Source: Bacteroidota bacterium (GTDB lineage Bacteria > Bacteroidota > Bacteroidia > Flavobacteriales > Flavobacteriaceae). From it: a DNA stretch of 15,110 nt. The stretch spans positions 1 to 15,110 of the forward strand of contig SBFL01000398.1 in assembly GCA_006227965.1 (NCBI GenBank), written 5' to 3'. This document shows positions 349-15,110 of the stretch, piece by piece (positions within the stretch are counted from its first letter, which is position 1; every line of letters begins with the position of its first letter). A program made the translations under genes and the position numbers. The notes under the pieces were generated by a model that was not told the DNA's origin, searched no databases, and was given only the letters and a program-made list of their open reading frames with translations.

Positions 349-367
349 GTATTCAAGCTGTTTTTTG

Positions 368-396
368 TGGGCCCTAAGATAATAAATTGGGCCCTA
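368..396. repeat. Two 9-bp direct repeats (TGGGCCCTA) 20 bp apart upstream of the cytochrome gene
   Basis: TGGGCCCTA occurs at 368-376 and again at 388-396, exactly 20 bp apart, about two helical turns. The core GGGCCC is itself palindromic. The right copy contains the stop codon of the hydrolase gene. Between and partly overlapping them, on the minus strand, is TATCTTAG (374-381), one mismatch from the Bacteroidota -7 element TAnnTTTG. The layout would suit a regulator bound on one helix face around the cytochrome promoter. This is inference from spacing only. Confidence 0.4.
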
Positions 397-1356
397 TTCA
401 CACTCCCTGAGGAATTCCAGGCTCCTTTGCTCGCTGTAATAATAGGTCCCCTCTCCGACAAACCCAACATGGCCGCCGTAATCCGGACTTTCGAAAAACA
501 ACCTGGGATGGTTCTTGCAGACTTCCCCCGGATAGCAGTGGGGCCCTAGAAAAGAATCGTTCCGGGCATTCAGCAACAGGGTGGGGACCCTGATTCCCTC
601 CAGGAATTGAAGGCTGCTGCACCGCGTATAGTAGTCAATGGCATCCGCGAAGCCGTGTGCCCTGCTCGTGTAGTAGTCATCGAAATCCCTCAGGCTTCTG
701 ATTTTGCCGGCCTCCTCCAGAGTGATCCGCCCGGGAAATCGCTTTTGTTTTTCCAATACTTTTTCCCGCAGGGTTGTGAGAAACCTGCGGGCGTACAACC
801 AGTTTTTCGGTTTGTTGAGTTCCAGGAGCGAATCATAAAGGTCACACGGTACCGAAATGGCGGCTGCCCCTGCTATGCGATTGGAGTAATGGGGCCGTTC
901 CCCCAGGAATTTGAGAATAAGATTACCCCCAAGGCTGAACCCTTTGAGGTAGATCCTGGAATAGGCATGGGCCTTCTCAATGTGCTGAATGACTGCTTCC
1001 AGATCCTCGGTGGCGCCGGAGTGATAGGAGCGAAAAAGCAGGTTGGGCTCCCCGCTGCATCCCCTGAGGTTTACCGCACATACATCATAACCGCTGGTAT
1101 TGAACAGGCGCGCGCTCCCGACCATGTAAGGACGTTGGGCATTTCCTTCCAGCCCGTGAAGCAAAATCAGCACTTTGTCTGTGGGCCCGTCTGCCCGGCT
1201 CCAGTCGAGGTCGATGAAATCTCCGTCGGGAAGGGTAATCCGTTCCCTGATCTGCTCCGGGGCCTCCACCTTTCGGAGCAGGGCGGAATAAATAGTGGCC
1301 AGATGCCCATTCCGGAAAAACACCTCGGGCCTGTAAGTGGAGGAAAGCAGGGGCAT
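394..1356 (-). CDS. YheT-type alpha/beta hydrolase
   Basis: A 320-residue alpha/beta-fold hydrolase of the YheT/UPF0017 family (E. coli YheT-like, related to ABHD1/3 lipases and esterases). Seen: the N-terminal family segment FFRNGHLATIY (13-23), oxyanion-region LHGLEG (66-71), nucleophile elbow GFSLGGN (139-145, Ser141), and likely acid and base Asp267 (NARNDSF) and His296 (YGGHVGF). All three catalytic residues are present and the length is normal, so the enzyme should be active. The substrate is unknown; family members act on acyl esters and the protein is probably cytosolic. The start ATG at 1356 overlaps the stop of the upstream bestrophin gene by one base in a TAATG junction, which points to translational coupling and supports this start. 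No signal peptide is visible. Confidence 0.92.
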   Translation of the reverse strand: MPLLSSTYRPEVFFRNGHLATIYSALLRKVEAPEQIRERITLPDGDFIDLDWSRADGPTDKVLILLHGLEGNAQRPYMVGSARLFNTSGYDVCAVNLRGCSGEPNLLFRSYHSGATEDLEAVIQHIEKAHAYSRIYLKGFSLGGNLILKFLGERPHYSNRIAGAAAISVPCDLYDSLLELNKPKNWLYARRFLTTLREKVLEKQKRFPGRITLEEAGKIRSLRDFDDYYTSRAHGFADAIDYYTRCSSLQFLEGIRVPTLLLNARNDSFLGPHCYPGEVCKNHPRLFFESPDYGGHVGFVGEGTYYYSEQRSLEFLRECE

Positions 1357-2357
1357 TAGTAGAGGATATTGTTTATGGGAGCGACTTTCTCCGGAAGAGG
1401 GTCTTCATCCAGCATGTCCTTCAGATCGATTTCTATGGTTTTGCAGATAGCCGTCATTGGGACATCATTAAACCGACCCTCAAATGGGTCTTCACTGTTC
1501 TTGGCCACTCTGTCTATGGTAATGAAGATCCAGGAGATCAGCACCGAAAGGAGAATAGCCGCTGTTTCAAGCCAGATTATTCCAGAATGGCTGAGTCTCA
1601 GGAATTCTTCATCGAAGGCATTGAGCAGTCCAAAGGGGAGCAAAAGGACAAAGATCCATGCAAAGATGGTCCCGTAATAGGCATACTGACGGGGGAACGG
1701 AGTGTTCTTGATGCGCTCGCAGGCACCCTGGAAATTGTAGTTCTCCTCCAGCACCTTTTGCAGCATCAGGTTTTGAAATTCATTTATTTTTCCATCCTGC
1801 AACAGTTCCTTCAGATGGAGTCCCTGATTCTTAATCAAATGGGTGGCTGTGTTTTTGCGATCCTTGAGGTTTGCCAGTTCCCCTGCTGACACTAAGGGTT
1901 GAATGATGTCAGCGATGGTTCCGTAGGCCCTGTAACCCTCGATGTGCCGCTTGAGTGATTTGCTGCGGTCCAGCGAGAACGAAGTTGGTTGCCTCAATTG
2001 CACGCGCAAGGCATTGATCCAGGCCAGGTGGCGGTAGATGAGGATCCGCTGGTCTTCCGGGGCGTCTTTAACAAAACTTAGCACCTGCATGCCCCAGGTC
2101 CTTGAATAGTTTACAATGGCCCCCCAGAGTTTGCGGGCTTCCCAGAAACGGTCATAGCTCTGACTGTTCTTAAAACCGAGGTAAAAGGAAACCGCAATTC
2201 CAATTATGCTCAGCGGTTCAATGGCCAGAGAGATAAATGTCCATTCTAAATTGTAATACAAAAAGAAGACCAGGGATGACCAGATGATGAAGAACGCCAG
2301 TTCCTTCCAGGTGCCCCTTAGGACGGGGAGTAATCCTAAATTTCTTTTAACGTACAT
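1356..2357 (-). CDS. Bestrophin-family (UPF0187) ion channel
   Basis: A 333-residue inner-membrane protein of the bacterial bestrophin family, which forms pentameric ion channels (bacterial members studied range from cation- to anion-selective). Seen: hydrophobic segments at about 20-37 and 41-61, the signature region NSQSYDRFWEARKLWG (64-79), a long soluble helical middle, two more membrane segments at about 228-247 and 258-281, and the family C-terminal element EDPFEGRFNDVP (289-300). Length is normal. It is the second gene of a minus-strand run: 11 bases follow the NMO-type gene and the stop overlaps the start of the hydrolase gene. Ion selectivity cannot be read from the sequence with confidence. 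Confidence 0.92.
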   Translation of the reverse strand: MYVKRNLGLLPVLRGTWKELAFFIIWSSLVFFLYYNLEWTFISLAIEPLSIIGIAVSFYLGFKNSQSYDRFWEARKLWGAIVNYSRTWGMQVLSFVKDAPEDQRILIYRHLAWINALRVQLRQPTSFSLDRSKSLKRHIEGYRAYGTIADIIQPLVSAGELANLKDRKNTATHLIKNQGLHLKELLQDGKINEFQNLMLQKVLEENYNFQGACERIKNTPFPRQYAYYGTIFAWIFVLLLPFGLLNAFDEEFLRLSHSGIIWLETAAILLSVLISWIFITIDRVAKNSEDPFEGRFNDVPMTAICKTIEIDLKDMLDEDPLPEKVAPINNILY

Positions 2358-2368
2358 AGAGTCAGGGG

Positions 2369-3340
2369 TTATCCATACTGAGCTATCATGGCTGTCTGGT
2401 CCCTCAGAGCCTCCAGGAATTCCTTCCGGAGCCTCTCCACGAGCTTTTGTACCGGGAGGGTCTCGTGAATGGTGGCTGCTCCCTGCCCAGCAGACCAGAT
2501 GGTCTTCCAGGCCTTGGCTTCCGTATCCAGTTCCTTGCCGAAATCAATCTTGGTATTCTTTTTAAGATCTTCCTCGCTAAGGCCGGCCGCTTTGAGGCTT
2601 TGTGCCAGGAAGTTGGCATGTACCCCCGAGATGGCGGCCGTGTAAATGATATCGCTGGCCCCTGCCTCGATGATCATTTCCCGATAGGCTTCGGGGGCGG
2701 CGCTTTCCGAGGTGTTGATAAACCGGGTGCCCATATAGGCCAGGTCGGCTCCCATCTGAAGTGCTGAAGCTACGTCCCGGCCGGTGCTGATACAGCCGGA
2801 CAGGATCAGCGTTTTGTCATAAAATGATTCCACTTCTGCGACCAGCGTCATGGGATTGATGGTCCCTGCATGGCCTCCGGCCCCGGCCGAGACCAGGATG
2901 AGTCCGTCCACTCCTGCTGCCGCTGCTTTTTCCGCGTGTCTTTTCTTGATGATGTCGTGAAAAACGAGCCCCCCGTAACTGTGGACCGCATCCACCACCT
3001 GGGAAACCGCCCCCAAAGAAGTTATGATAAGGGGGACTTTGTGTTTGATGCAGAGCCTGAGGTCTGCCTCAAGCCTTGGATTCGTTGGATGGACGATCAG
3101 ATTGACCCCAAAAGGTGCTGGCTTCTTTCCCGTCTCGGCCTCAAAAGCAGCCAGGGTTTCCTTGATTTGGATGAGCCAAGCTTCAAATCCTTCGCTGCTC
3201 CTTTGGTTAAGGGCTGGGAATGTTCCTACTATACCGCTGGTACAACAGGCAACGACCAGTTCCGGATTGGAAATTAAAAACATGGGGGCTGCAATCACAG
3301 GAAGTGAAAGGTCCTTGATAAATGATGCTTTCTGAGTCAT
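2369..3340 (-). CDS. NMO-type FMN oxidoreductase (nitronate monooxygenase / 2-nitropropane dioxygenase family)
   Basis: A 323-residue TIM-barrel flavoprotein of the NMO/2-nitropropane dioxygenase-like family, which also includes FabK enoyl-ACP reductases. Family members use FMN to oxidise nitronates such as propionate 3-nitronate, or to reduce enoyl thioesters. Seen: N-terminal PVIAAPMFLISNPELVVACC (14-33), FGVNLIVHP (77-85), the phosphate and catalytic loop SAGAGGHAGT (151-160, with His157 in the position of the NMO catalytic base), SGCISTGRDVASALQMGAD (181-199) and MGTRFINTSES (203-213). The catalytic His argues for nitronate oxidation rather than a FabK role, though related proteins of unknown substrate are common. 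It is cytosolic and leads the minus-strand operon with the bestrophin and hydrolase genes. No clear -7 element was found in front of it; an AT-rich TATTTTTTA lies at 3359-3367 on the minus strand. Confidence 0.88.
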   Translation of the reverse strand: MTQKASFIKDLSLPVIAAPMFLISNPELVVACCTSGIVGTFPALNQRSSEGFEAWLIQIKETLAAFEAETGKKPAPFGVNLIVHPTNPRLEADLRLCIKHKVPLIITSLGAVSQVVDAVHSYGGLVFHDIIKKRHAEKAAAAGVDGLILVSAGAGGHAGTINPMTLVAEVESFYDKTLILSGCISTGRDVASALQMGADLAYMGTRFINTSESAAPEAYREMIIEAGASDIIYTAAISGVHANFLAQSLKAAGLSEEDLKKNTKIDFGKELDTEAKAWKTIWSAGQGAATIHETLPVQKLVERLRKEFLEALRDQTAMIAQYG

Positions 3341-3411
3341 ATGGATACGGATATGGGTTAAAAATAAGGATAAATCGAGGGATGCATTACACCTGTCCCC
3401 AATTTCGATGT

Positions 3412-3419
3412 ATTTTTGG
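3412..3419 (+). promoter_or_regulatory. Possible -7 promoter element before the thioesterase remnant
   Basis: TATTTTTG matches the Bacteroidota -7 consensus TAnnTTTG and lies 33 bases before the ATG at 3453. No TTG-type -33 element is seen at the usual 17-23 base spacing, and the area is AT-rich, so chance is possible. Confidence 0.3.
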
Positions 3420-3452
3420 TTTATTATGCACGCATAGTAAAATTTATACCAA

Positions 3453-3683
3453 ATGTACGTAAAGCACTTCGAATTCAGGTGGAGGGACCTGTATGCGAAC
3501 AGGCATCTTGGAAACAGTGCCTATATCAATTTTATGAGCCATACCCGGATGGCCAATTTCTATGAGAAGGGATTCAGCCAGGAAGTCCTCACTGCCCTTG
3601 ATTTCAGGGTTCTGACGCGGGAGGCCCCGGCGTTGTGCTATCCCCCGGAAAGACCTGTTTTAGGCTTCTTACTCACCAGATAG
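3453..3683 (+). pseudogene. Truncated acyl-CoA thioesterase (4HBT hotdog) remnant
   Basis: The first 48-50 codons read as the start of a 4-hydroxybenzoyl-CoA-thioesterase-like hotdog protein: FRWRDLYANRHLGNSAYI (8-25), FMSHTRMA (27-34) and EKGFSQE (38-44), the usual N-terminal strand plus hotdog helix with Asp/Asn and His near the active site. Intact family members run about 130-160 residues; this ORF stops at 76. From about base 3600 the translation (residues about 50-76) no longer resembles the family, and neither other forward frame resumes it, so the 3' two-thirds appears to be lost rather than frameshifted. The last 46 bases overlap the 3' end of the convergent DMT transporter gene. A likely cause is a deletion or rearrangement that joined the thioesterase start to this locus. 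The family call is firm for residues 1-48; loss of function is inference from length. Confidence 0.75.
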
Positions 3684-4540
3684 ACCCCCGTAAGCACTAG
3701 CAATGTAGCCACCAGGTTTAGCAGTGTCAGAGAGTCTTTCCCCATCAGCAGCGCAAAGAGGATGCCGATCACGGGCTGTCCATAGATAAATGCACTTACC
3801 GTCGATGCTTTCAGCTGGGTAAGTGCAAATACATTAAACAGGTAGGTGAGAAAGGTAGTGCCCACAATTACGAAACCAATGGCGGCCAGCCCTGAGGAGG
3901 GGATAATCTGCCACTCGATCTCAAGGAATTCCCCGAGGGTCAGGGGGAGGTTCATAAAGAATGCCAGGGTAAAGAGCCACTTCATCAGCGTGAAGGGATG
4001 GTATTTCTCGGTGAGCTTCTTGGCGAGGAGCAGGTAGAGCCCATAGCTGGTCGAATTAACTATGAAAAGAGCGTTTCCCAGAGGAATATTCGGCGCATTG
4101 ACGCTCTGGCCTTTATTCATAAAGATCAGGGCAAGGGCACCGGCAAGACCCATCCCGATTCCGAAAACCTTGCTCCGCGTTATTTTTTCGGCAATCAGGA
4201 AGATGGACAACACGGTCACGATAATAGGGGTAATGGTTATCAGTACGGAGCTGTTGATGGGGGTGGACAGTTCGAGTCCCTTGAAGAAGGCCAGCATATT
4301 GATCACCATGCCGAAAAGGGAGCACATCAGTAAACGCCCCCAGTCCCGTTTTTTAATTTGTTGACGTGGCCCCAGAAAGGAAATCGCCCAAAAAAGAAGG
4401 GCCGCTCCGCTCACCCTGAGGAAGATAAAACCGAACGCTCCCACATGGTGGGGCATTACCCCTTTTGCAATAGTGTGGTTCAGGCCATATATGGTAGTGG
4501 CACCCACAGCGGCCAGAATGGCCATGGTCCGTTTGTTCAA
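3638..4540 (-). CDS. EamA/DMT-superfamily transporter
   Basis: A 300-residue inner-membrane permease of the drug/metabolite transporter superfamily with two tandem EamA units and about ten predicted membrane helices. Seen: N-terminal ATTIYGLNHTIAKGVMP (14-30), FIFLRVSGAALLFW (39-52), LSTPINSSVLITITPII (91-107) ending the first unit, then a second unit from about 153 with NALFIVNSTSYGLYLLLAKKL, and FIYGQPVIGILFALLMG (251-267). The substrate is unknown; relatives export amino acids or metabolites. The start drawn is TTG at 4540, which overlaps the ArsC-like stop codon as TTGA and would give coupled translation. An in-frame ATG at 4525 (residue 6) is a good alternative and would leave a 12-base gap. 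The gene converges on the thioesterase remnant. Confidence 0.88.
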   Translation of the reverse strand: MNKRTMAILAAVGATTIYGLNHTIAKGVMPHHVGAFGFIFLRVSGAALLFWAISFLGPRQQIKKRDWGRLLMCSLFGMVINMLAFFKGLELSTPINSSVLITITPIIVTVLSIFLIAEKITRSKVFGIGMGLAGALALIFMNKGQSVNAPNIPLGNALFIVNSTSYGLYLLLAKKLTEKYHPFTLMKWLFTLAFFMNLPLTLGEFLEIEWQIIPSSGLAAIGFVIVGTTFLTYLFNVFALTQLKASTVSAFIYGQPVIGILFALLMGKDSLTLLNLVATLLVLTGVYLVSKKPKTGLSGG

Positions 4541-4890
4541 GAGTGCAGTGCTACTTTGGCAGCGGCCACTGTTTTAGCCGAATTGCCGATAAATACCTTC
4601 TCGCCCACCACTACCACGGGCCGCTTAAGGAACGTGTAGTGTTCCAGTAAGAGCTGACGGAAATCGCCCTCGCCCAATGAACGCTCCTTCAGATTCCGCT
4701 CCTGGTACAACCGGGCCCGCTTGCTGAAAAGAGCTTCATAACTTCCGGCCCTGTTTTTAAGTTCTTCCAGCTGACCGGGGCTAAGGGGAGTGGCTTTGAT
4801 GTCCTGCAATTCTATGCCATCCGTGGCATTGAGCTCCCTGAGAATGCGCCGGGAGGTGTCACAGGTACTCAGGTGATAAATTTTCTTCAT
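4537..4890 (-). CDS. ArsC/Spx-family thioredoxin-fold protein
   Basis: A 117-residue cytosolic protein of the arsenate reductase-like (ArsC/Spx/YffB) family. Seen: N-terminal strand and redox loop IYHLSTCDTSRRIL (4-17, with Cys10 at the ArsC nucleophile position), the middle segment LFSKRARLYQERNLKERSL (54-72), and the family C-terminal element FLKRPVVVVGEKVFIGNS (87-104). Length is typical. ArsC enzymes reduce arsenate via this Cys and three Arg residues, whereas many homologues of this size in Bacteroidota have no proven arsenate activity, and no other ars gene is nearby. I therefore call the family, not the reaction. It is the first gene of a two-gene unit with the DMT transporter, preceded by an exact -7 promoter match. 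The start ATG at 4890 gives the typical N-terminus. Confidence 0.88.
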   Translation of the reverse strand: MKKIYHLSTCDTSRRILRELNATDGIELQDIKATPLSPGQLEELKNRAGSYEALFSKRARLYQERNLKERSLGEGDFRQLLLEHYTFLKRPVVVVGEKVFIGNSAKTVAAAKVALHS

Positions 4891-4924
4891 GCCGTTGGTT
4901 TTTCCGAGCCGTTAAACCGTCTTT

Positions 4925-4954
4925 CAAAAGTAAGGCTTAAATTTAGAAACGAAA
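4925..4954 (-). promoter_or_regulatory. Promoter of the ArsC-like/DMT transporter unit
   Basis: On the minus strand TACTTTTG (4925-4932) is an exact match to TAnnTTTG. A TTTC, one base from the -33 TTTG, lies at 4951-4954 with an 18-base spacer. Transcription would begin near 4919, giving a leader of about 29 bases. Confidence 0.55.
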
Positions 4955-4971
4955 TCACCCAAAACAGCAGC

Positions 4972-5436
4972 ATGAACGAATCCTTTGTCTTCCAAACGCT
5001 CCTCAAACAAAGAAAACACCTTGCCAGGATCCTGACTGAAACCAGTCCTGAACACCTGCAGAGAATACCTGACGGGTTTAATAACAACATCTGGTGGAAT
5101 GCTGCCCATACCCTGGTAGTTCAGCAATTGCTTTGCTACAGACTTAGCGGACTTCCCATGCATATAGACAACGATCTGGCAGCAGCTTATTCCAAAGGCA
5201 CTTTTCCCGGAACCCTGCCCGAAGCCCGGATACGCGAGAAGATCTGCGACCTGTTAACCAGTACGGTAGGGCAACTGCGGCGGGACTTTGAAGAGGGGAT
5301 CTTCAAAGAATACACCTCCTATACAACCAGTGCAGGGGTGACCCTTGAAAACATCGAGGATGCGATACTTTTCAACCTTTACCATGAAGGGCTCCACATG
5401 GGGACAATCCTGGCATTGCTGAAAGCAGAGCGGTAG
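4972..5436 (+). CDS. DinB-like (DinB_2 superfamily) metalloprotein
   Basis: A 154-residue four-helix-bundle protein of the DinB/YfiT superfamily, which includes putative metal-dependent thiol (for example bacillithiol-type) transferases and many proteins of unknown role. Seen: the three-histidine metal site typical of the fold, His46 (WWNAAHTLV) and His138/His142 (YHEGLHMG), together with the N-terminal helix and DLLTSTVGQLRRDF in helix 3. The frame is open back to 4873, but the ATG at 4972 begins the normal N-terminal helix (MNESFVFQTLLKQRKHLARI), whereas the upstream extension overlaps the divergent ArsC-like start, so 4972 is chosen. A weak -7-like TAAATTTA lies at 4938-4945. The gene converges with the DUF3298 lipoprotein gene across only 9 bases. 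Confidence 0.85.
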   Translation: MNESFVFQTLLKQRKHLARILTETSPEHLQRIPDGFNNNIWWNAAHTLVVQQLLCYRLSGLPMHIDNDLAAAYSKGTFPGTLPEARIREKICDLLTSTVGQLRRDFEEGIFKEYTSYTTSAGVTLENIEDAILFNLYHEGLHMGTILALLKAER

Positions 5437-5445
5437 AGACCTCCC

Positions 5446-6180
5446 TTAAGGGGTTCGCGACAGGAAACCACCCACCTGTTCCATGGGGAATACAAGGACC
5501 AGGGCTCCATCTGCGTATGAGGCCGCCTCGTAGGGGTTGTAGTGCAGTACGATCCCTTCGTTTTCGAACCCCATATTCTGGGGAAGGCGGAACAGGTTGT
5601 CCTCAAACATGAAGCCCGTACTGTTGATCGGCGCATCTTCGGGGATGCTGTATTGCCGGCGGAAAGAGGCTTCCGCGAATTCCAAAAACGCTCCGGGGTC
5701 TTTGAACAATTCCTCTGCACCCAGTTCCATTCCCGTTTTTTTATCAAAGTTCAGGTACCGGGTTGCCGGGTACCCGTGTGCCCCACCCGTGAAAATATAG
5801 GTATCCATTTTAATGGTGATCACTTGGGAGTCTTCATAACTTTTGATGGCTTCCACCGAAGCTTCCCAACCTGTCAGTTCCTCAGGGAATTCCTCCTGCA
5901 TCTTGCGAAACCCGTCCTGAAAGTCCCTGATCGCTCCGGGGATGTCCTGGGCATCTTGCTCCTCATCATAGTCGAGCAATTCGATGATTTCCTCCCGAAG
6001 GGCGGTATTTACTGATGTTTCCAATTTGCCATCCCCTGGCATTTCCGGGATTATCACACGGACCACCGGACAGGTTTCACAGGCCATGCCCGAATATTCG
6101 CGCATCCGAATTTCAGTGGTTTTGTCCGGTTGGCATGCCATCAGAAGGCCAAAAAACAAAAAGAGGGTCGCGTTTCTCAT
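5446..6180 (-). CDS. RsiV-like (DUF3298/DUF4163) lipoprotein
   Basis: A 244-residue exported lipoprotein. Seen: signal peptide with hydrophobic core FLFFGLLMAC, lipidated Cys16; a CETC cysteine pair (34-37); an acidic helical region (about 57-105); and a C-terminal DUF3298 domain with YIFTGGAHGYPATRYLNFD (128-146), ELGAEELFKD (152-161), and YNPYEAASYADGALVLVFP (214-232). DUF3298/4163 domains occur in the RsiV anti-sigma factor, where they bind lysozyme, and in the non-catalytic part of PdaC-type deacetylases. This protein has no anti-sigma or deacetylase domain, so I infer only a cell-envelope ligand-binding role. The frame extends to 6204, but the -7 element at 6202-6209 and the signal peptide both favour the ATG at 6180. 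Confidence 0.85.
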   Translation of the reverse strand: MRNATLFLFFGLLMACQPDKTTEIRMREYSGMACETCPVVRVIIPEMPGDGKLETSVNTALREEIIELLDYDEEQDAQDIPGAIRDFQDGFRKMQEEFPEELTGWEASVEAIKSYEDSQVITIKMDTYIFTGGAHGYPATRYLNFDKKTGMELGAEELFKDPGAFLEFAEASFRRQYSIPEDAPINSTGFMFEDNLFRLPQNMGFENEGIVLHYNPYEAASYADGALVLVFPMEQVGGFLSRTP

Positions 6181-6201
6181 TTCAGGATTTAAAAGATTTC
6201 C

Positions 6202-6209
6202 CAAAGATA
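6202..6209 (-). promoter_or_regulatory. -7 promoter element of the DUF3298 lipoprotein gene
   Basis: On the minus strand TATCTTTG is an exact match to TAnnTTTG; transcription would start near 6195, about 15 bases before the ATG at 6180. No convincing -33 TTG is seen at normal spacing. Its position excludes the longer reading frame start at 6204. Confidence 0.5.
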
Positions 6210-6249
6210 CAATTCACGTCTATACGGTAAGGTATTCTGCTTACAATGG

Positions 6250-6280
6250 TTGGATTGGGACCTGATTCGGGATACCTTTG
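6250..6280 (+). promoter_or_regulatory. Promoter of the cystathionine synthase/lyase-type gene
   Basis: TTG at 6250-6252 and TACCTTTG at 6273-6280 match the Bacteroidota -33 and -7 elements with a 20-base spacer. Transcription would start near 6287, leaving a leader of about 14 bases. The promoter lies inside the upstream extension of the reading frame and so supports the ATG at 6301 as the start. Confidence 0.6.
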
Positions 6281-6300
6281 TCAGAACACATCCAACCCGT

Positions 6301-7464
6301 ATGAAAAAGCCTTTGCGATTCAACAGTAAAACCATTCATGGCGGACAGCAACCGGACAAGGCCTATGGGGCCGTAATGCCGCCCATTTACCAGACCTCCA
6401 CTTTTGCACAGGATTCCCCCGGCTCCCATAAGGGCTTCGAATACTCAAGGAGCGGCAACCCTACCCGAAGTGCCCTTGAAGCTTCCTTTGCCAGCATTGA
6501 AAACGGGACTTACGGACTGGCCTTTGCCAGCGGCCTTGCGGCTATGGATGCCGTTATGAAACTTTTGTCGCCCGGGGATGAAGTCGTTTCCACAAACGAC
6601 CTGTACGGGGGCAGTTACCGCCTTTTCCGGAAAGTTTTCGAGCCCTTCGGCATCCGGTTTCGGTTCGTCGACATGCGGGACCTATCCCGGATTGAAGAGG
6701 CTATCGGCCCAAATACGCGTCTTATCTGGGTCGAAACACCAACCAATCCCATGATGAACATCATCGATATCCAGGCTGTCGCCGCGATGGCCAAAAAGCA
6801 CCAGGTACTTCTCGCAGTGGACAATACCTTTGCGACCCCTTATTTGCAAAGGCCCCTCGAGTTGGGCGCCGATATCGTTATGCACTCTGCGACCAAATAT
6901 TTAGGGGGCCACAGCGATGTGGTGGCAGGGGCGCTGATCGTACGGGATCAGGAGCTGGCCGATAAGCTCTATTTCATCCAGAACGCCAGCGGGGCTGTTT
7001 GCGGGCCTATGGACAGTTACCTGGTGCTGAGGGGGATCAAGACCCTCCATGTGCGCATGCAGCGCCACTGTGAGAACGGGGAGCAGATCGCGCGGTTCCT
7101 TCAGGCCCATCCCGCAGTGGACAGGGTCTTTTGGCCCGGGTTTGAGGACCACCCCAACCACGCCATTGCCAAAACACAAATGCTCGGTTTCGGGGGGATG
7201 ATTTCCTTTGTCCCCAGAGGCGCGAGCTACCGGGATGCCGTGAAGATCGTGGAGGCCCTGCGTGTTTTTACCCTTGCCGAATCCCTGGGAGGCGTTGAAA
7301 GCCTGGCGGGGCACCCGGCCAGCATGACACATGCCAGTATCCCGAAAGAAGAACGTGAGAAAAGCGGGGTTACCGATTCCCTTATCCGACTGAGCGTGGG
7401 GATAGAGGATGCGCAGGACCTTATCGAAGACCTCGGTCAGGCCCTGTCCCTTCTTGAAGCCTAG
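6301..7464 (+). CDS. Cystathionine gamma-synthase / cystathionine lyase-type PLP enzyme
   Basis: A 387-residue cytosolic PLP enzyme of the Cys/Met metabolism (MetB/MetC/CGL) family, which makes or cleaves cystathionine in transsulfuration and methionine synthesis. Seen: YSRSGNPTRSALE (48-60, Tyr and Arg binding the PLP phosphate of the partner subunit), ASGLAAMDAV (76-85), NDLYGGSYRLF (99-109, Tyr stacking on PLP), VETPTNPMM (144-152), AVDNTFATP (172-180, Asp174 to the pyridine N), the Schiff-base lysine Lys199 in HSATKYLGGHSD (195-206), SLGGVESLAGHPASMTH (328-344), and substrate-carboxylate Arg363 in LIRLSVGIED (361-370). All key residues are present and length is normal. Synthase versus beta- or gamma-lyase cannot be settled from motifs. 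The frame runs back to a TTG at 6250, but promoter and family N-terminus favour 6301. It faces a divergent lipoprotein gene and precedes gdhA. Confidence 0.93.
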   Translation: MKKPLRFNSKTIHGGQQPDKAYGAVMPPIYQTSTFAQDSPGSHKGFEYSRSGNPTRSALEASFASIENGTYGLAFASGLAAMDAVMKLLSPGDEVVSTNDLYGGSYRLFRKVFEPFGIRFRFVDMRDLSRIEEAIGPNTRLIWVETPTNPMMNIIDIQAVAAMAKKHQVLLAVDNTFATPYLQRPLELGADIVMHSATKYLGGHSDVVAGALIVRDQELADKLYFIQNASGAVCGPMDSYLVLRGIKTLHVRMQRHCENGEQIARFLQAHPAVDRVFWPGFEDHPNHAIAKTQMLGFGGMISFVPRGASYRDAVKIVEALRVFTLAESLGGVESLAGHPASMTHASIPKEEREKSGVTDSLIRLSVGIEDAQDLIEDLGQALSLLEA

Positions 7465-7501
7465 CCCAAATTATTTTGTCAAATTTTTAAAAAAAGGTGG
7501 G

Positions 7502-7528
7502 TTGAATTATGGGAAAGCCATAATTTTG
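7502..7528 (+). promoter_or_regulatory. gdhA promoter with an inverted repeat in its spacer
   Basis: TTG (7502-7504) and TAATTTTG (7521-7528) fit the -33 and -7 elements with a slightly short 16-base spacer; the -7 continues as TAATTTTGC, the same as the one before ileS. An 8-bp perfect inverted repeat, AATTATGG (7505-7512) and CCATAATT (7518-7525) around GAAAG, fills the spacer and runs into the -7. It could be an operator at which a bound protein blocks RNA polymerase, or a weak AT-rich terminator of the upstream gene, though the T run after it is only four bases. Confidence 0.55.
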
Positions 7529-7569
7529 CCGCTAAATTTTTAAGTTGACAATCCTATACCAATTTCACT

Positions 7570-8922
7570 ATGGCTGATATGCAAGCAACTATCGAGGCTT
7601 TTATGGACGAAGTAAGGGCCCGAAATAGCCACGAACCAGAGTTTCTTCAGGCGGTTCAGGAGGTGGCTGAAACCACCATCCCCTATATCGCTCAAAACGA
7701 TATTTACTACGGCAAGAATATTTTGCTTCGCATGGTGGAGCCGGAACGTCTGATCTCTTTCAGGGTTGCCTGGGTGGATGACAAGGGTGAAATCCATGTG
7801 AACCGGGGGTACCGGGTACAGATGAATTCTGCCATTGGGCCCTATAAGGGCGGACTTCGTTTCCACCCTTCGGTGAATGCGAGCATCCTTAAATTCCTCG
7901 CTTTTGAGCAGGTATTCAAAAACAGCCTCACCACCTTGCCCATGGGCGGCGGGAAAGGAGGTTCTGATTTTGACCCCAAGGGAAAATCGGACGATGAGGT
8001 CATGCGTTTTTGCCATGCTTTTATGACCGAGCTCTGCCGGCATGTGGGTCCCAACACGGATGTTCCTGCAGGCGATATCGGGGTGGGTTCCCGCGAGATC
8101 GGATTCCTTTTCGGGATGTACAAAAAGATCCGCAACGAATTCACCGGGGTCCTCACGGGGAAAGGACTATCCTGGGGAGGATCCAAGATCCGGCCCGAAG
8201 CTACCGGGTACGGAACAGTTTATTTCGCCGAAAACATGCTGAAGACCCGGGATGATTCCGTGGAGGGCAAAGAGGTTGTGATCTCCGGATCAGGGAACGT
8301 GGCCCAGTACGCTGCCGAAAAAGTAATTCAGCTTGGAGGTAAGGTCCTTACCCTTTCGGATTCAGGGGGGTATATCCATGATGAGGACGGTATTGATGCC
8401 GAGAAGCTCGCCTGGGTGATGGACCTTAAAAACAATCGCCGCGGCCGGATATCCGAGTATGTGGAGAAGTATCCGAAAGCCACTTATTATAAAGGGGAAA
8501 CACCATGGGGCGTCCCCTGTCAGATTGCCCTGCCCTGTGCCACCCAGAATGAATTGAACGGGGACGACGCCAGGACCCTCATCAGGAATGGCTGTATTTG
8601 TGTGGCTGAAGGTGCCAATATGCCTTCGACTCCTGAAGCCATGCATGCCTTTCAGGATTCCAGGGTGCTTTTTGCCCCCGGAAAGGCCTCAAATGCCGGA
8701 GGCGTGGCCACCTCCGGACTCGAAATGTCCCAGAATTCCCTCAGGATCAGCTGGACGCGGGAGGAAGTGGATCAACGGCTCCGTTCCATCATGTCCGATA
8801 TCCATGATTCTTGTGTGGAATACGGCATGGAGGCGGATGGATCCTGCAACTATGTTAAAGGGGCCAATATTGCCGGTTTTGTCAAGGTGGCGGACGCCAT
8901 GCTGGCCCAGGGAGTGATATAG
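7570..8922 (+). CDS. gdhA: NADP-type glutamate dehydrogenase
   Basis: A 450-residue hexameric-type glutamate dehydrogenase that converts 2-oxoglutarate and ammonium to glutamate, the low-affinity route of nitrogen assimilation. Seen: glutamate-binding region GPYKGGLRFHPSVN (90-103, Lys93), catalytic PMGGGKGGSDFDPKGKS (124-140, Lys129), PAGDIGVGSREIG (166-178, catalytic Asp169), the GLSWGGSKIRPEATGYG stretch (199-215), nucleotide-binding VVISGSGNVAQYAAEK (236-251) and GANMPSTPEA near 349-358. Length matches the roughly 450-residue GdhA subfamily (E. coli GdhA-like), generally NADP(H)-linked; cofactor choice here is by subfamily, not proven. It has its own promoter and ends at an intrinsic terminator, so it is probably monocistronic. 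Confidence 0.96.
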   Translation: MADMQATIEAFMDEVRARNSHEPEFLQAVQEVAETTIPYIAQNDIYYGKNILLRMVEPERLISFRVAWVDDKGEIHVNRGYRVQMNSAIGPYKGGLRFHPSVNASILKFLAFEQVFKNSLTTLPMGGGKGGSDFDPKGKSDDEVMRFCHAFMTELCRHVGPNTDVPAGDIGVGSREIGFLFGMYKKIRNEFTGVLTGKGLSWGGSKIRPEATGYGTVYFAENMLKTRDDSVEGKEVVISGSGNVAQYAAEKVIQLGGKVLTLSDSGGYIHDEDGIDAEKLAWVMDLKNNRRGRISEYVEKYPKATYYKGETPWGVPCQIALPCATQNELNGDDARTLIRNGCICVAEGANMPSTPEAMHAFQDSRVLFAPGKASNAGGVATSGLEMSQNSLRISWTREEVDQRLRSIMSDIHDSCVEYGMEADGSCNYVKGANIAGFVKVADAMLAQGVI

Positions 8923-8947
8923 CCTGTTCAGATACCTTTTTTTATAT

Positions 8948-8981
8948 CTCCCGGCGCCTTGTGTTCCGGGAGTTTCTTTTT
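8948..8981 (+). terminator. Rho-independent terminator of gdhA
   Basis: CTCCCGG (8948-8954) pairs perfectly with CCGGGAG (8966-8972) across an 11-base loop and is followed by TTTCTTTTT (8973-8981). It lies 26 bases after the gdhA stop and separates gdhA from recO. The minus strand lacks a matching T run, so it acts in one direction. Confidence 0.85.
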
Positions 8982-8990
8982 AAATGGATG

Positions 8991-8998
8991 TATCTTTG
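8991..8998 (+). promoter_or_regulatory. -7 promoter element of recO (and probably the TonB receptor gene)
   Basis: TATCTTTG is an exact TAnnTTTG match, identical to the element of the DUF3298 gene. It lies right after the gdhA terminator and 18 bases before the ATG at 9017. No clear -33 is seen. The in-frame ATG at 8984 lies before it, so a transcript from here can only use 9017. Confidence 0.5.
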
Positions 8999-9016
8999 GG
9001 GACCAACAGGGACCCG

Positions 9017-9736
9017 ATGCGAATCCGAACCAAAGCCATTGTACTGTCTACCCTTAAATACGGGGACCACTCCCTGATCGCAAAGGCCTATACGTCCGAA
9101 GCCGGGCTGCAATCCTTCATGCTGAAAGGCATCTTCAGGAGCCGGAAGGGAAAACTGAAAACGGCTTTCTTCCAACCGCTTACTCAGCTGGAAATCATTG
9201 CTAGCACCAGTCCTTCCGGAAAATTGGGCTACATTCAGGAAGCCCTGCTCAGTTATCCCTATACCACGGTCCATGCCGATATCCGGAAAGGCACCATAGC
9301 CCTGTTTTTATCTGAAATCCTCGGGCAAAGTATCCGGGAACAGGAACCGGACCCTGCCCTGTTTCAATTTCTGGAGGCATCCCTGCAGTGGCTGGACCAA
9401 CACGACAAAATCGCCAATTTCCATATAGGATTCCTGATAGCGCTGACCCGTCATCTCGGGTTCTATCCAGACACCATTAATTTACAGGCACCCTTCTTTG
9501 ATCTCACGGAGGGGGCTTTTTGCCATGAACCTTCTTTGAATCCCTGTATGAGCGGGGAGGAACTGGATCAATTCAGGGCTTTTTTAGGCACGGATTTTGA
9601 TGCAATTCATACGATCCGTTTGACCCAAAAACAGCGTCAAAGATTGCTCAGTCAGCTTGTCAGCTATTTTGAGGTACATTTGCACGGATTCAGCAAACCG
9701 AGATCCTTAGTCGTATTAGATGCAGTGTTTTCTTAA
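9017..9736 (+). CDS. recO: DNA repair protein RecO
   Basis: A 239-residue RecO-family protein, which anneals SSB-coated single strands and works with RecR to load RecA in the RecF pathway. Seen: N-terminal OB-fold region beginning RTKAIVLSTLKYGDHSLIAKAYTSEAG (from residue 4), with KGIFRSRKGKLK (about 38-49) as the basic segment and LGYIQEALLSYPYT (about 70-83), then a helical domain with the family element FHIGFLIALTRHLGFYPD. No four-cysteine zinc motif is present, as in many Bacteroidota RecO proteins. The frame also opens at an ATG at 8984, but family alignment of the RTKAIVL start and the -7 element favour 9017. Its last 17 bases overlap the start of the TonB receptor gene. Confidence 0.9.
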   Translation: MRIRTKAIVLSTLKYGDHSLIAKAYTSEAGLQSFMLKGIFRSRKGKLKTAFFQPLTQLEIIASTSPSGKLGYIQEALLSYPYTTVHADIRKGTIALFLSEILGQSIREQEPDPALFQFLEASLQWLDQHDKIANFHIGFLIALTRHLGFYPDTINLQAPFFDLTEGAFCHEPSLNPCMSGEELDQFRAFLGTDFDAIHTIRLTQKQRQRLLSQLVSYFEVHLHGFSKPRSLVVLDAVFS

Positions 9737-12149
9737 GCCAGCCTACGTTGTAATCCTTTCGGTTTTTCTGTTTTCGGGCGGGCTGCAGGCCCAGAAGATA
9801 CTTGTCTTTGATGAGGAAACGGGAGAACCCATTCCCGATGTTGCCATCTTTACCCGGGATCACTCTATTACCGCACTCACGGATTTTGACGGATACTTTG
9901 ATCTAAGCCCTTTCCCCAAAAATACCCGTATCGAAATGCGACACCTTAGCTACCAGACCCGGTTTATCACCCGGGAGGGAATCCTGCGTATGGGAAAAAA
10001 GGTGCCGTTGGAAGCAAAGGCGGAACAATTGCAGGAGATCGTGGTATCCATCTCCAAATGGGAGCAGCAGAAAAAGGACATTCCCCAGAAGGTCGAAACC
10101 ATTGGGGCTTCGTCCATTGCCTTTGCCAACCCTCAAACCTCAGCAGACCTCTTGCAGCAATCCGGGAAAATTTTTGTCCAGAAAAGCCAGTACGGCGGAG
10201 GCAGCCCCATGATCAGGGGTTTTGCCACCAACAGGGTCCTTATATCCGTCGACGGGATACGCATGAACAATGCCATCTTCAGGGGGGGCAATATCCAGAA
10301 CGTAATTTCCCTTGACCCCTATTCGCTGAGGAGTACGGAAGTCATCTTTGGCCCTGGCTCCGTGATATACGGAAGTGATGCCATCGGAGGAGTGATGAAT
10401 TTCTATACCCGCACCCCCAGGTTTTCCCTGTCCGATACCCTTGAGGTCAGCGGGAATGCCTCCTACAGGACGGCCACGGCATCCGGCGAACATACGGTTC
10501 ATGGGGATGTTGCCCTCGGAGACCAAAAATGGGCCTTTTTGAGCAGCCTTACCTACAACTCTTTCGGGGACCTGCGAATGGGCGTGCACGGCCCGGATTC
10601 CTATCTCAGGCCGTCGTATATAGTACGGGAAAACGGACAGGATGTGTTGAAACAGAATGAAGACCCAAGGGCCCAGGTACCCTCGGGCTATCAGCAGTGG
10701 AATTTTATGCAAAAAGTCCGGTACCAGCCGGGTAATCGCTGGTCGATAGATTTGGGGCTGCACTATTCTGAAACCTCAGATTTCCCCCGGTACGACAGGT
10801 TGATTCGGCCCGCCGACAACGAGGTCGGGCTGAGATCTGCGGAGTGGGATTACGGACCCCAGGTCTGGGGGATGGGAAATCTGCAGGTTTCCCACAGGGG
10901 CCGGGATACGTTTTATGATCGGATGAAGGTGACGGCGGCCTATCAGTATTTTGAGGAGAGCCGGAACGAACGGAATTTTATGGACGAAATACGCTACGGC
11001 AACCGTGAACAGGTGGATGCATATTCCCTGAACCTGGATTTTGAAAACCGGAAAATTGGAAACATCAGCCTTTTTTATGGATTGGAATATGTGGGCAACC
11101 TGGTTGATTCAGAGGGGGAAGAAGTAAATATACTAACCGGCAGCAGTGAACCCGGGCCCTCCCGTTACCCGGACGGGTCCGCCTGGACGAGCCTGGCAGC
11201 CTATGCCAATGCAACCTACCGCTGGAAGCCCAACCTGACCTTAATGACCGGGCTCAGGTACAGCCATTTCTGGATCGATGCTGAATTTGACCGCACCTAT
11301 TACCCCTTTCCCTTTGAGGAGGCCCGCCTGAATAACGGAGCCCTTACCGGAAGCATAGGGATCAGCTGGTTTGCCCGCCAAAACACACAGTTCACCCTGA
11401 ACGCCTCAACGGGTTTCCGGTCTCCGAATATAGACGATATCGGGAAGGTCTTTGACTCCGAGCCCGGGTCGGTGGTGGTACCCAATCCCGACCTGCAACC
11501 TGAGTACGCCTATAACATAGAGGCAGGGATCCGACAGAACATCAGGGATAAGGTAATGCTGAAAGGATCGGTGTATTACACCTATCTTTCAAATGCCATG
11601 GTAAGGCGTGATTATGCTCTAAATGGGGAGCGCACCATTGAGTACAATGGGGAGCCGAGCAATGTTCAGGCAATTCAGAATGCCGCCGATGCCTTTGTTT
11701 ACGGAATAGAACTGGGATTTGACGCCGCCCTTACTGAATTCTGGTCCTTCAGGGGGAACCTCACCCTGGCCGAAGGGGAAGAAGAGGAAGCCGACGGCAC
11801 CACCTCGGCGGCCCGCCATGTGGCACCTACATTCGCAGACCTGCAACTGGGCTGGGCCAAGTATCCCTTGAAATTAGCAATGGTTCTGAACTACAACGGG
11901 GAAATCCCCTACGACGACCTGGCATTCTCGGAACGGAACAAGGCCTATATCTATGCGAAGGATGCAGCCGGCAACCCGTTTTCCCCTTCCTGGTATACCC
12001 TGAGTTTCAGATCTGCCTATACCCTCTGGGACCGGTACCAGCTGACATTTGCCGTTGAAAACCTGACCAATCAGCGTTACCGGCCCTATTCTTCGGGTAT
12101 TGCAGCTGCCGGGCTAAATGTGATCGCCGGCCTGAACGTACAGTTTTAA
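9720..12149 (+). CDS. TonB-dependent outer-membrane receptor
   Basis: An 809-residue outer-membrane active transporter. Seen: signal peptide (1-25, ending GGLQAQ), a CarboxypepD_reg-like domain (about 27-98, with DEETGEPIPDVAIFT and TDFDGYF), a TonB-box-like LQEIVVS (104-110), the plug domain (about 115-230, with GSPMIRGFATNRVLISVDGI and GSDAIGGVMNFYT), and a 22-strand-type barrel with SDFPRYDRL, FRSPNIDDIG and VENLTNQRYRPYSSGI near the end, closing in Phe (NVQF) as expected for barrel assembly. The DFPRYDRL and NPDLQPEYAYN elements resemble the haemoglobin/transferrin-type group, so a haem or iron ligand is plausible but unproven; no SusD partner is adjacent, arguing against a glycan system. 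The ATG lies inside recO (17-base overlap) with no Shine-Dalgarno sequence, suggesting coupled translation from the recO transcript. Confidence 0.93.
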   Translation: MQCFLKPAYVVILSVFLFSGGLQAQKILVFDEETGEPIPDVAIFTRDHSITALTDFDGYFDLSPFPKNTRIEMRHLSYQTRFITREGILRMGKKVPLEAKAEQLQEIVVSISKWEQQKKDIPQKVETIGASSIAFANPQTSADLLQQSGKIFVQKSQYGGGSPMIRGFATNRVLISVDGIRMNNAIFRGGNIQNVISLDPYSLRSTEVIFGPGSVIYGSDAIGGVMNFYTRTPRFSLSDTLEVSGNASYRTATASGEHTVHGDVALGDQKWAFLSSLTYNSFGDLRMGVHGPDSYLRPSYIVRENGQDVLKQNEDPRAQVPSGYQQWNFMQKVRYQPGNRWSIDLGLHYSETSDFPRYDRLIRPADNEVGLRSAEWDYGPQVWGMGNLQVSHRGRDTFYDRMKVTAAYQYFEESRNERNFMDEIRYGNREQVDAYSLNLDFENRKIGNISLFYGLEYVGNLVDSEGEEVNILTGSSEPGPSRYPDGSAWTSLAAYANATYRWKPNLTLMTGLRYSHFWIDAEFDRTYYPFPFEEARLNNGALTGSIGISWFARQNTQFTLNASTGFRSPNIDDIGKVFDSEPGSVVVPNPDLQPEYAYNIEAGIRQNIRDKVMLKGSVYYTYLSNAMVRRDYALNGERTIEYNGEPSNVQAIQNAADAFVYGIELGFDAALTEFWSFRGNLTLAEGEEEEADGTTSAARHVAPTFADLQLGWAKYPLKLAMVLNYNGEIPYDDLAFSERNKAYIYAKDAAGNPFSPSWYTLSFRSAYTLWDRYQLTFAVENLTNQRYRPYSSGIAAAGLNVIAGLNVQF

Positions 12150-12301: not shown

Positions 12302-15110
12302 ATGAAGTTCAAAGAGTACAAAAAACTGGATCTCCCGAAGGTTGCTGAAGACATACTTAATTTTTGGAAATCCGGAGCGATTTTCGAAAAAAGCATCAGC
12401 ACTCGGGAAGGAGGCAGGCCATTCGTGTTCTACGAAGGCCCGCCCTCAGCCAATGGCATGCCAGGGATTCACCATGTGATGGCCCGGACCATCAAGGATA
12501 TATTCCCCCGCTACAAGACCATGAAGGGTTACCAGGTGAAGCGAAAGGCCGGATGGGATACCCATGGCCTGCCCATCGAACTCGGTGTGGAAAAAGAACT
12601 GGGGATTACCAAGGAGGATATCGGCACCAAAATTTCCATCGAATCTTACAATGAGGCCTGCAAAAAGGCTGTAATGCGCTATACGGATGTCTGGAATGAC
12701 ATGACCGAGAAGATCGGTTATTGGGTGGACATGAGAGATCCTTATATCACCTACAAGCCGAAGTATATGGAAACGGTTTGGTGGCTGCTGAAAGAAATCT
12801 ACGACAAGGGACTCATCTACAAGGGGTATACCATTCAGCCGTATTCCCCCAAGGCAGGTACCGGGCTGAGCTCCCACGAGCTCAACCAGCCAGGGACCTA
12901 TCAGGATATAACAGACACCACTGTTACAGCCCAGTTCGAGGCTGTGGCAGAATCCCTCCCCGGGTTCCTCAGGGAGGAGGCGGGAAAAATCTATTTCCTG
13001 GCCTGGACCACCACCCCATGGACCCTTCCATCGAACACAGCCCTGACGGTAGGTCCGAAAATCGATTACGTCCTGGTGGAAACCTACAACCAGTACACCT
13101 ACCAGCCCATAAAGGTGATTCTCGCCAAGTCCCTGGTGCCCCTTCAGTTTGGAAGTAGGTTCCAGGAGGTGCCCAGTGGGGAGGCCTGGCCGGAATACAC
13201 CTCTGACGACAAAAAGATTCCCTATCGGACCCTTATTGAATTCAAGGGGTCTGAGCTGCTTGGGATCCGCTACCGACAGCTGCTTGAGTACGCCCTGCCC
13301 TACGAACATCCTGAAAATGCATTCCGGGTGATTGCAGGGGATTTTGTCACCACGGAGGATGGAACAGGGATAGTTCACACGGCCCCGACATTCGGCGCGG
13401 ACGACATGCAGGTGGCCAGGGAGGCAGTGCCGCCCGTGCCCCCCATGCTGGTGCTGGACCAGGCAGGGAATCCGGTTCCTTTGGTGGACCTGCAGGGGAA
13501 GTTCCGTCCCGAAATGGGGGAGCTCGCAGGCAAGTACGTAAAGAATGAGTACTATGCGGAAGGGGAAGCCCCGGAGCGCTCTGTGGATGTCGAGATTGCC
13601 ATAAAGCTGAAGGAGGAGAACAAGGCCTTCAAGGTCGAAAAATACGTGCACAGCTATCCGAATTGCTGGAGGACGGACAAGCCCGTGCTGTATTACCCGC
13701 TGGATTCCTGGTTCATCAAGGTCACCGAGGTGCGGGACCGGATGTATGAACTCAACCAGCAGATCAACTGGAAGCCAAAAGCCACAGGGGAAGGCCGGTT
13801 CGGGAACTGGCTTTCCACAGCCAATGACTGGAACCTCTCCCGCTCACGGTACTGGGGGATCCCCCTGCCGATCTGGAGGACTGAGGACGGTCAGGAAGAA
13901 ATGATTATTGGATCGGCGGCTCAGCTGAAAGCCGAGATCGGCAAAGCCCTGGAGGCCGGTTTCATGGAGGTGGACCCCTTTCCTGACTTTGTGCCTGGAG
14001 ACATGTCGGAAGAAAATTACGACCGTATTGACCTCCATAAGAATATTGTGGATGGTATTACCCTGGTTTCACCTTCGGGAATACCCATGAAAAGGGAAAA
14101 CGACCTGATCGACGTGTGGTTTGACAGTGGCTCCATGCCCTACGCCCAGTGGCACTATCCTTTTGAGAACAGGGATTTAATAGATTCAGGAGCTTATTTT
14201 CCGGCAGATTTTATCGCCGAGGGGGTGGACCAGACTCGGGGATGGTTTTACACGCTCCATGCCATTGCTACCATGGCATTTGATTCAATCGCCTACAGGA
14301 ACGTGGTCTCAAACGGCCTGGTCCTGGATAAGGACGGCAAAAAGATGTCCAAACGGCTTGGCAATGCTGCGGATCCCTTTGAAACGATTCAAAGCCATGG
14401 GCCGGATGCCACCCGCTGGTATATGATTTCCAATGCCAACCCCTGGGACAACCTGAAATTCGATATGGACGGGATCGTGGAGGTAAAGCGTAAATTCTTC
14501 GGGACCCTTTACAATACCTATTCCTTTTTCGCCCTGTATGCCAATATAGACGGGTTTGACTACCGGGAAGCGGAAATTCCCCTGGGAGAGCGACCGGAAA
14601 TCGACCGGTGGATCCTTTCGGAGCTGAACACCCTGATCCTGGAAACGGACAGTGCCTATGAAGATTATGAGCCAACCCGGGCGGCACGGATGATCTCCGA
14701 TTTCGTTCAGGAAAACCTCAGTAACTGGTATGTAAGGCTTTGCCGCAGGCGTTTTTGGAAAGGGGACTACGGTCAGGATAAGATCTCGGCATACCAGACA
14801 CTGTTTACCTGCCTGAAGACGGTTTCAGAGCTGGCGGCCCCAATTGCTCCCTTTTTCATGGAACAGCTCTACAGGGACCTGATGGGCGGGGTGGTGCTTG
14901 AAGGGCATGAAAGTGTCCACCTGGCCTGGTATCCACAGGCGAATACGGAATTGATCGACAAGGAACTCGAGGCAAAAATGCTTAAAGCCCAGACGATCAG
15001 TTCCCTAGTTCTTTCCATTCGCCAGAAGGAGAAGATTAAGGTTCGCCAGCCGTTGCAGAAGGTGATGATCCCCGTGCTTGATTCCCGTCAGAGAAGGGAG
15101 ATCGAAGCAG
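12302..15110 (+). CDS. ileS: Isoleucyl-tRNA synthetase, type 2-like, partial (C-terminus outside window)
   Basis: Class I aminoacyl-tRNA synthetase charging tRNA-Ile; 936 codons are present of about 1,130-1,150 expected, open at the right edge. Seen: N-terminal YEGPPSANGMPGIHHVMART (44-63), where the HIGH signature reads GIHH (55-58); AGWDTHGLPIELGVEKELG; the CP1 editing domain with WTTTPWTLPSN (235-245) and DFVTTEDGTGIVHTAPTFGADD (residues 347-368, with Asp367/368 near the amino-acid carboxyl site); WNLSRSRYWGIPLPIW; DVWFDSGS; GVDQTRGWFYTLH; the KMSKS loop as KMSKR (681-685); and the anticodon-binding helical domain from about 700. KMSKR and overall style place it with the type 2, eukaryote-like group common in Bacteroidota. 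No frameshift or stop was seen. The ATG at 12302 gives the usual N-terminus. Editing appears intact. The altered HIGH motif is discussed in the findings. Confidence 0.95.
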   Translation, partial: MKFKEYKKLDLPKVAEDILNFWKSGAIFEKSISTREGGRPFVFYEGPPSANGMPGIHHVMARTIKDIFPRYKTMKGYQVKRKAGWDTHGLPIELGVEKELGITKEDIGTKISIESYNEACKKAVMRYTDVWNDMTEKIGYWVDMRDPYITYKPKYMETVWWLLKEIYDKGLIYKGYTIQPYSPKAGTGLSSHELNQPGTYQDITDTTVTAQFEAVAESLPGFLREEAGKIYFLAWTTTPWTLPSNTALTVGPKIDYVLVETYNQYTYQPIKVILAKSLVPLQFGSRFQEVPSGEAWPEYTSDDKKIPYRTLIEFKGSELLGIRYRQLLEYALPYEHPENAFRVIAGDFVTTEDGTGIVHTAPTFGADDMQVAREAVPPVPPMLVLDQAGNPVPLVDLQGKFRPEMGELAGKYVKNEYYAEGEAPERSVDVEIAIKLKEENKAFKVEKYVHSYPNCWRTDKPVLYYPLDSWFIKVTEVRDRMYELNQQINWKPKATGEGRFGNWLSTANDWNLSRSRYWGIPLPIWRTEDGQEEMIIGSAAQLKAEIGKALEAGFMEVDPFPDFVPGDMSEENYDRIDLHKNIVDGITLVSPSGIPMKRENDLIDVWFDSGSMPYAQWHYPFENRDLIDSGAYFPADFIAEGVDQTRGWFYTLHAIATMAFDSIAYRNVVSNGLVLDKDGKKMSKRLGNAADPFETIQSHGPDATRWYMISNANPWDNLKFDMDGIVEVKRKFFGTLYNTYSFFALYANIDGFDYREAEIPLGERPEIDRWILSELNTLILETDSAYEDYEPTRAARMISDFVQENLSNWYVRLCRRRFWKGDYGQDKISAYQTLFTCLKTVSELAAPIAPFFMEQLYRDLMGGVVLEGHESVHLAWYPQANTELIDKELEAKMLKAQTISSLVLSIRQKEKIKVRQPLQKVMIPVLDSRQRREIEA

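Follow-up and report, generated by a model that had tools for sequence, protein, structure and literature searches.

Is the unusual class I signature of the isoleucyl-tRNA synthetase (IleRS) gene at the end of this contig a peculiarity of one gene, the mark of an acquired resistance determinant, or the ordinary state of an inherited enzyme? The gene reads GIHH where related enzymes read HxGH, and the same exchange has been linked to extreme tolerance of the antibiotic mupirocin. In what follows, the window is the whole stretch of DNA that was analysed (15,110 nucleotides). The features on which the argument turns are these:

12302..15109, + strand: ileS, type 2 isoleucyl-tRNA synthetase, 936 codons from an ATG start at 12302; the contig stops at 15110, so the 3' end is missing
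12446..12448, + strand: Ser49, in the column of the type 1 Tyr (alignment column counts)
12464..12475, + strand: swapped class I signature GIHH (G55-I56-H57-H58), HxGH in related enzymes (direct reading, pattern search and alignment columns)
13010..13036, + strand: TTPWTLPSN, residues 237-245 (columns 236-238 are Thr in 188/188 alignment rows)
13361..13378, + strand: GTGIVH, residues 354-359 (Gly356 and His359 invariant in 188/188 rows)
14342..14356, + strand: second class I signature KMSKR, residues 681-685, in place of KMSKS (direct reading)

The TTPWTLPSN and GTGIVH segments are what we take to be motifs of the editing domain.

The type of the enzyme

Despite its truncation, the ileS translation scores 969.8 bits against TIGR00392, the NCBIfam ileS equivalog (cut-off 621.4), and it contains the tRNA-synt_1 and anticodon-binding domains. 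In the protein collection, the named sequences nearest to it come from Robiginitalea, which suggests that the window comes from a Robiginitalea-like member of the Flavobacteriaceae (Bacteroidota). The nearest full-length relative (P0001, 1133 aa) matches the query along its full length at 98% identity and carries DUF5915 (PF19302) at its C terminus, a part of the protein that in the window falls past the contig end. It is in this C-terminal part that type 2 enzymes are characterised by lacking a Cys-4 cluster. Among solved structures, the T. thermophilus IleRS (1ile, 709.5 bits) was one of the best matches, and the P. megaterium type 2 entries 8c8u, 8c8v, 8c8w and 8c9d reached 676.9-688.2 bits, with swapped HIGH letters visible in the alignment to 8c8w; type 1 entries, including 1ffy, gave at most 303.8 bits. 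The window's IleRS is also separated from the type 1 enzymes (six rows) on a tree of 188 sequences (see below). The absence of the Tyr that precedes ANG (Tyr-59 of E. coli) and the presence of a HYPFE motif have been described as features of type 2 IleRS (PMC4861432). Here, Ser49 replaces the Tyr and HYPFE is present (WHYPFENRD). A preliminary description of this DNA had associated the exchange with type 2 enzymes; the structure-search scores, the TIGR00392 score and the C-terminal PF19302 of P0001 uphold a type 2 assignment, and the window protein is, as judged from its sequence, a type 2 isoleucyl-tRNA synthetase.

With the type 1 enzymes (E. coli, S. aureus chromosomal) it would share the reaction, the class I fold and the editing domain, but the 23 fetched loci that we classed as type 1 all have HxGH together with KMSKS. 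With the canonical HxGH members of type 2 (P. megaterium IleRS2, T. thermophilus IleRS, MupA and MupB) it shares the family and the domains and would share a reduced sensitivity to mupirocin. The P. megaterium and T. thermophilus enzymes nevertheless keep HVGH, with Ki values of 1.08 and 0.20 uM, respectively (PMC10485003), whereas the window's enzyme has GIHH.

Reading and register of the signature

The codons GGG ATT CAC CAT at 12464-12475 are in frame and give GIHH in the context EGPPSANGMP-GIHH-VMARTIKD, just as the preliminary description had read them. When the patterns HxGH, G/AxHH and HGxH were sought in the 936-residue translation, GIHH at residues 55-58 was the sole match, and the translation holds no earlier HxGH that could be the true signature. 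The description had also aligned the motif after ANG. In our MAFFT alignment of 188 isoleucyl-tRNA synthetases these four columns do contain G/AxHH (156 rows) or HxGH (32 rows), position 58 being His in 188/188. The column before the signature is Pro in all 182 non-type-1 rows, so the register is secure. With Gly first and His third and fourth, GIHH falls in the G/AxHH class, which is defined by Gly or Ala first and His at both later positions. A sequencing error or chance is ruled out by the 29 loci that we fetched from further genomes within the genus, family or order, every one of which has G[I/V]HH at the signature; the pattern search and the alignment columns exclude a misplaced register. 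In the same genome, frames resembling LeuRS, MetRS and CysRS (named from the context of their motifs) have the canonical HVGH, HIGH and HEGH.

In the 188 rows, the Ser49 column, which is that of the residue before ANG, has Thr in 124 and Ser in 32 of the GxHH enzymes, Thr in the 19 HxGH type 2 enzymes, Phe in seven eukaryote-like enzymes with HYGH or HWGH, and Tyr in the six type 1 enzymes. Of the 156 GxHH rows, the 32 with Ser comprise the window's own, one for each of its 29 close relatives, and those from Parabacteroides and Riemerella. The residue in the Tyr-59 column has been tied to tRNA-dependent pre-transfer editing, type 2 enzymes being described with Thr or Phe, and the S. griseus IleRS, with a mupirocin Ki of 10 mM, does without this editing (PMC4861432); that enzyme is itself GxHH (PMC10485003). 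By analogy with it, Ser49 predicts an enzyme without tRNA-dependent pre-transfer editing.

The swapped motif in Bacteroidota

How common is the motif in the phylum? We ran DNA-pattern searches on 296 genomes sampled evenly from the window's phylum, the window's genome included. A G/AxHH pattern that requires Ala before AsnGly matched 192 of them, and the canonical HxGH pattern with the same requirement matched 0/296. When the 104 genomes missed by the G/AxHH pattern were searched again with the Ala position left free, 80/80 and 23/24 matched. The total is thus 295 of 296 genomes, a count of DNA patterns rather than of proven genes that is backed by the 29/29 fetched loci; the one genome without a match, G328, has a stated completeness of 88%. 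Reversed-pattern controls matched 3 of the 104 re-searched genomes and 2 of 296 in the HxGH run, with none among the matches listed in the first G/AxHH run, so chance explains few of the G/AxHH matches. The swapped motif is normal for the phylum and no peculiarity of the window's gene. Two GxHH pattern matches each were seen in G041, G142, G153, G220 and G256; the second in G041 reads ANGAPGFHH, unlike the first.

The enzyme also appears to be the only one of its kind in these cells. Among the matches listed, the window's genome (74.8% complete) has one isoleucyl-tRNA synthetase, and each of 40 genomes (the window's and 39 relatives) has one match of at least 1264 bits, the next best being ValRS-looking frames of at most 81.9 bits. 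In one genome (G025) a 32-residue piece of the same gene shows up in addition to the main match. In the window's genus, family and order, each relative has a single IleRS among these matches, 60-84% identical to that of the window. Downstream of ileS, the Parabacteroides and Riemerella records have a dksA-type zinc-finger gene and lspA (lipoprotein signal peptidase), and similar frames follow ileS at a flavobacterial locus (L025).

Because the motif is near-fixed in the phylum and the gene is apparently the only copy, we consider it highly likely that the window's IleRS is a normal, vertically inherited housekeeping enzyme of a Robiginitalea-like marine flavobacterium, belonging to the G/AxHH group of type 2. 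For the same two reasons, annotation tools should not call a GxHH ileS acquired resistance in this phylum. The motif has been in print since 2023; the additions made here are its phylum-wide scale and its occurrence in what is apparently the sole IleRS of the relatives examined.

Consequences for mupirocin

The preliminary description had pointed to published work linking the swapped motif to mupirocin, and rightly so: Brkic et al. 2023 report the same exchange with a millimolar Ki (PMC10485003). Their set comprises 379 sequences, in which type 2 is represented by 77 HxGH and 86 G/AxHH enzymes. Natural G/AxHH enzymes of type 2 have millimolar Ki values for mupirocin, and exchanging the motif shifts the Ki strongly (PMC10485003). 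The D. radiodurans enzyme (ALHH) goes from 6600 uM to 8.1 uM when given HVGH, an 823-fold decrease; in the opposite direction, the swapped motif raises the Ki from 0.20 to 35 uM in T. thermophilus IleRS and from 1.08 to 460 uM in P. megaterium IleRS2, changes stated as ~200-fold for both and, in the discussion, as ~430-fold for P. megaterium (PMC10485003). These exchanges cost at most 10-fold in kcat and KM, and type 1 enzymes given the GxHH swap lose their activity and form no product (PMC10485003). Type 1 enzymes have Ki values that are nanomolar or below (PMC10485003, PMC4861432).

The window's enzyme resembles the G/AxHH type 2 enzymes of D. radiodurans (ALHH) and S. griseus in its type and in the exchange of the first and third HIGH residues (PMC10485003); the fourth His and the KMSK core are kept in all of them. 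It differs in being a member of the Bacteroidota with GIHH, Ser49 and KMSKR, and in being known from sequence alone. By analogy with those enzymes, that of the window is very probably insensitive to mupirocin, and we infer that it came down by inheritance to the group as a whole and is no recent adaptation. The proposed mechanism is as follows. tRNA-Ile would be charged by an active site whose usual leading His sits two residues later. The tip of helix alpha1 would be shifted as in the published type 2 structures, bringing the third-position His beside the adenine. Upon binding of mupirocin the motif would move back, and in the published model the third-position His then clashes with the drug (PMC10485003). 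If the window's enzyme behaves in the same way, catalysis would be kept and mupirocin would bind very weakly. Given the kinetic cost of up to 10-fold in the published exchanges, we expect working catalysis on the ground that this is the only copy seen. The enzyme is distant from those with published kinetics (type 2 rows from other phyla are ~41-45% identical to it over aligned columns), and KMSKR, Ser49 and Leu673 are further differences in active-site columns.

The strings "bacteroid" and "flavobact" have 0 occurrences in the main text of Brkic et al. 2023 (PMC10485003), no further study of the motif was recognised by title among the papers listed by a literature search from 2023 on, and the portions of papers covered by our look-up gave no direct value for the mupirocin Ki or MIC of a Bacteroidota enzyme or host. 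In a culture-media model, mupirocin at 0.005 mg/ml raises the diversity of Bacteroidaceae, a weak but agreeing result (PMC13085705); the growth of clostridia on mupirocin media is uninformative for Bacteroidota (PMC11064412). The ileS of Bifidobacterium, a genus with intrinsic mupirocin resistance, offers another comparison: L082, a locus that bears the label B. breve, reads GTHH and is thus G/AxHH like that of the window, but it belongs to a different phylum and has KMSKH, not KMSKR. This locus conflicts with a published B. breve strain, with a mupirocin MIC of >1,024 ug/ml, for which HTGH and KMSKS are reported (PMC11091697).

Origin of the motif

The motif extends well beyond Bacteroidota. 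Species genomes scanned with the pattern PPTANGxP[G/A]xHH gave at least 116 loci: at least 35 in Actinomycetota, 14 in Chloroflexota, 14 in Bacillota, 11 in Pseudomonadota, 7 in Gemmatimonadota and 5 in Ignavibacteriota, fewer in others, at least 8 without a phylum and at least 4 in archaeal bins. These counts are no census, since the pattern leaves out the Ser form of the window. The bins labelled as archaea (Poseidoniales, Euryarchaeota) that have GIHH enzymes (L112, L126, L158, L159) may be mis-binned; in two of them (G355 and G356) the GIHH enzyme is the single strong genome match, among the matches listed. A GxHH type 2 enzyme coexists with a eukaryote-like HYGH enzyme in G339 (L198, L211) and G352 (L212, L207).

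Rows that were duplicated or short were removed first (228 to 197 to 188), and the FastTree tree was built with both motif columns excluded. The window falls in a GxHH clade of 66 rows (support 81); this clade also holds the full set of 29 close relatives, together with loci whose labels include Ignavibacteria, Gemmatimonadetes and Clostridiales. An HxGH group of 14 rows (support 48), from a Peptoniphilus-centred search, adjoins another GxHH clade of 83 rows. The HIGH state changes at least twice on this tree, and, because GxHH loci were gathered by pattern and HxGH is under-sampled, two is a minimum for this sample only. The swap may have arisen twice, or once with a later reversal, the joining branches having supports of 1, 3, 40 and 90. 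The published history of the motif has at least two gains and one reversal (PMC10485003).

What, then, fixed the motif? Tentatively, and with less than even confidence, we suggest that GxHH is an ancient alternative solution of the active site, frozen in whole phyla including Bacteroidota, with mupirocin insensitivity as a by-product and not the cause; in that case, intrinsic hyper-resistance to mupirocin at the level of the target would extend to practically all Bacteroidota. It seems unlikely that the swap is instead a resistance adaptation selected in the lineage by mupirocin or a similar compound. The motif raises the mupirocin Ki, and Brkic et al. favour antibiotic pressure as the cause of G/AxHH in general (PMC10485003). 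However, the state is nearly invariant in the sampled phylum (295/296), and on the 188-row tree, in which HxGH is under-sampled, it changes twice or more, compared with 23 changes for the fifth residue of KMSKS; a trait gained and lost according to exposure would look different. A single ancient selective episode, or ancient antibiotic pressure, may still have fixed the motif. The near-fixation reported here bears on this choice between antibiotic pressure and plain inheritance, and makes many sole-copy housekeeping enzymes available for testing the motif's origin.

That GxHH requires a compensating change of KMSKS to KMSKR, the two motifs having co-evolved, is very improbable. GxHH and KMSKR do occur together in 29/29 fetched relatives, and the fifth residue of the GxHH rows is Arg in 38/156 and His in 28/156. 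Yet more GxHH rows have plain KMSKS than any other form (84/156), and the 32 HxGH rows have Ser in 20, Arg in 6 and His in 6, i.e., Arg or His in 12/32. The LeuRS-like frame of the window's genome combines KMSKR with HVGH. Independent pairs number one or two on the tree, too few to test; the fifth residue changes 23 times against two for the HIGH state. Compensation was dropped for want of support from the row counts, the tree and the LeuRS-like frame.

Finally, ileS could be an acquired, mobile or second-copy resistance gene of the mupA kind, plasmid-borne type 2 genes being the known mobile form. The plasmid collection has 245 records that match the window's protein, irrespective of enzyme type, 143 of them from Staphylococcus. 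Against this stand the single copies described above and the scores of the NCBIfam exception models for MupA and MupB, enzymes whose signature is HxGH: 670.7 and 665.7 bits, far below the cut-off of 1900, although the truncation of the gene lowers them. Two Bacteroidota "plasmid" matches, of about nine among the matches listed, were examined and have chromosome-like housekeeping neighbours. On copy number, MupA/MupB scores and neighbours, we reject the mobile origin as scarcely credible. The two records, from Parabacteroides and Riemerella (L181, L182), are filed as plasmids; with dksA-type and lspA genes beside ileS, and lepA too in Riemerella, they look like pieces of chromosome rather than mobile ileS.

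The rest of the window

ARAGORN found no tRNA in the window, and no Rfam family reached the gathering threshold there, so that at this threshold no known RNA leader precedes ileS. An ORF at 1-348 on the minus strand has a CxxCH motif of the haem-binding kind and no Pfam match at 1e-5. Otherwise, the Pfam matches in positions 1-12149 point to ordinary genes: an alpha/beta hydrolase, a bestrophin, a nitronate monooxygenase, an EamA transporter, ArsC-like and DinB-like proteins, DUF3298, a Cys/Met PLP enzyme, a glutamate dehydrogenase, RecO and a TonB-dependent receptor.
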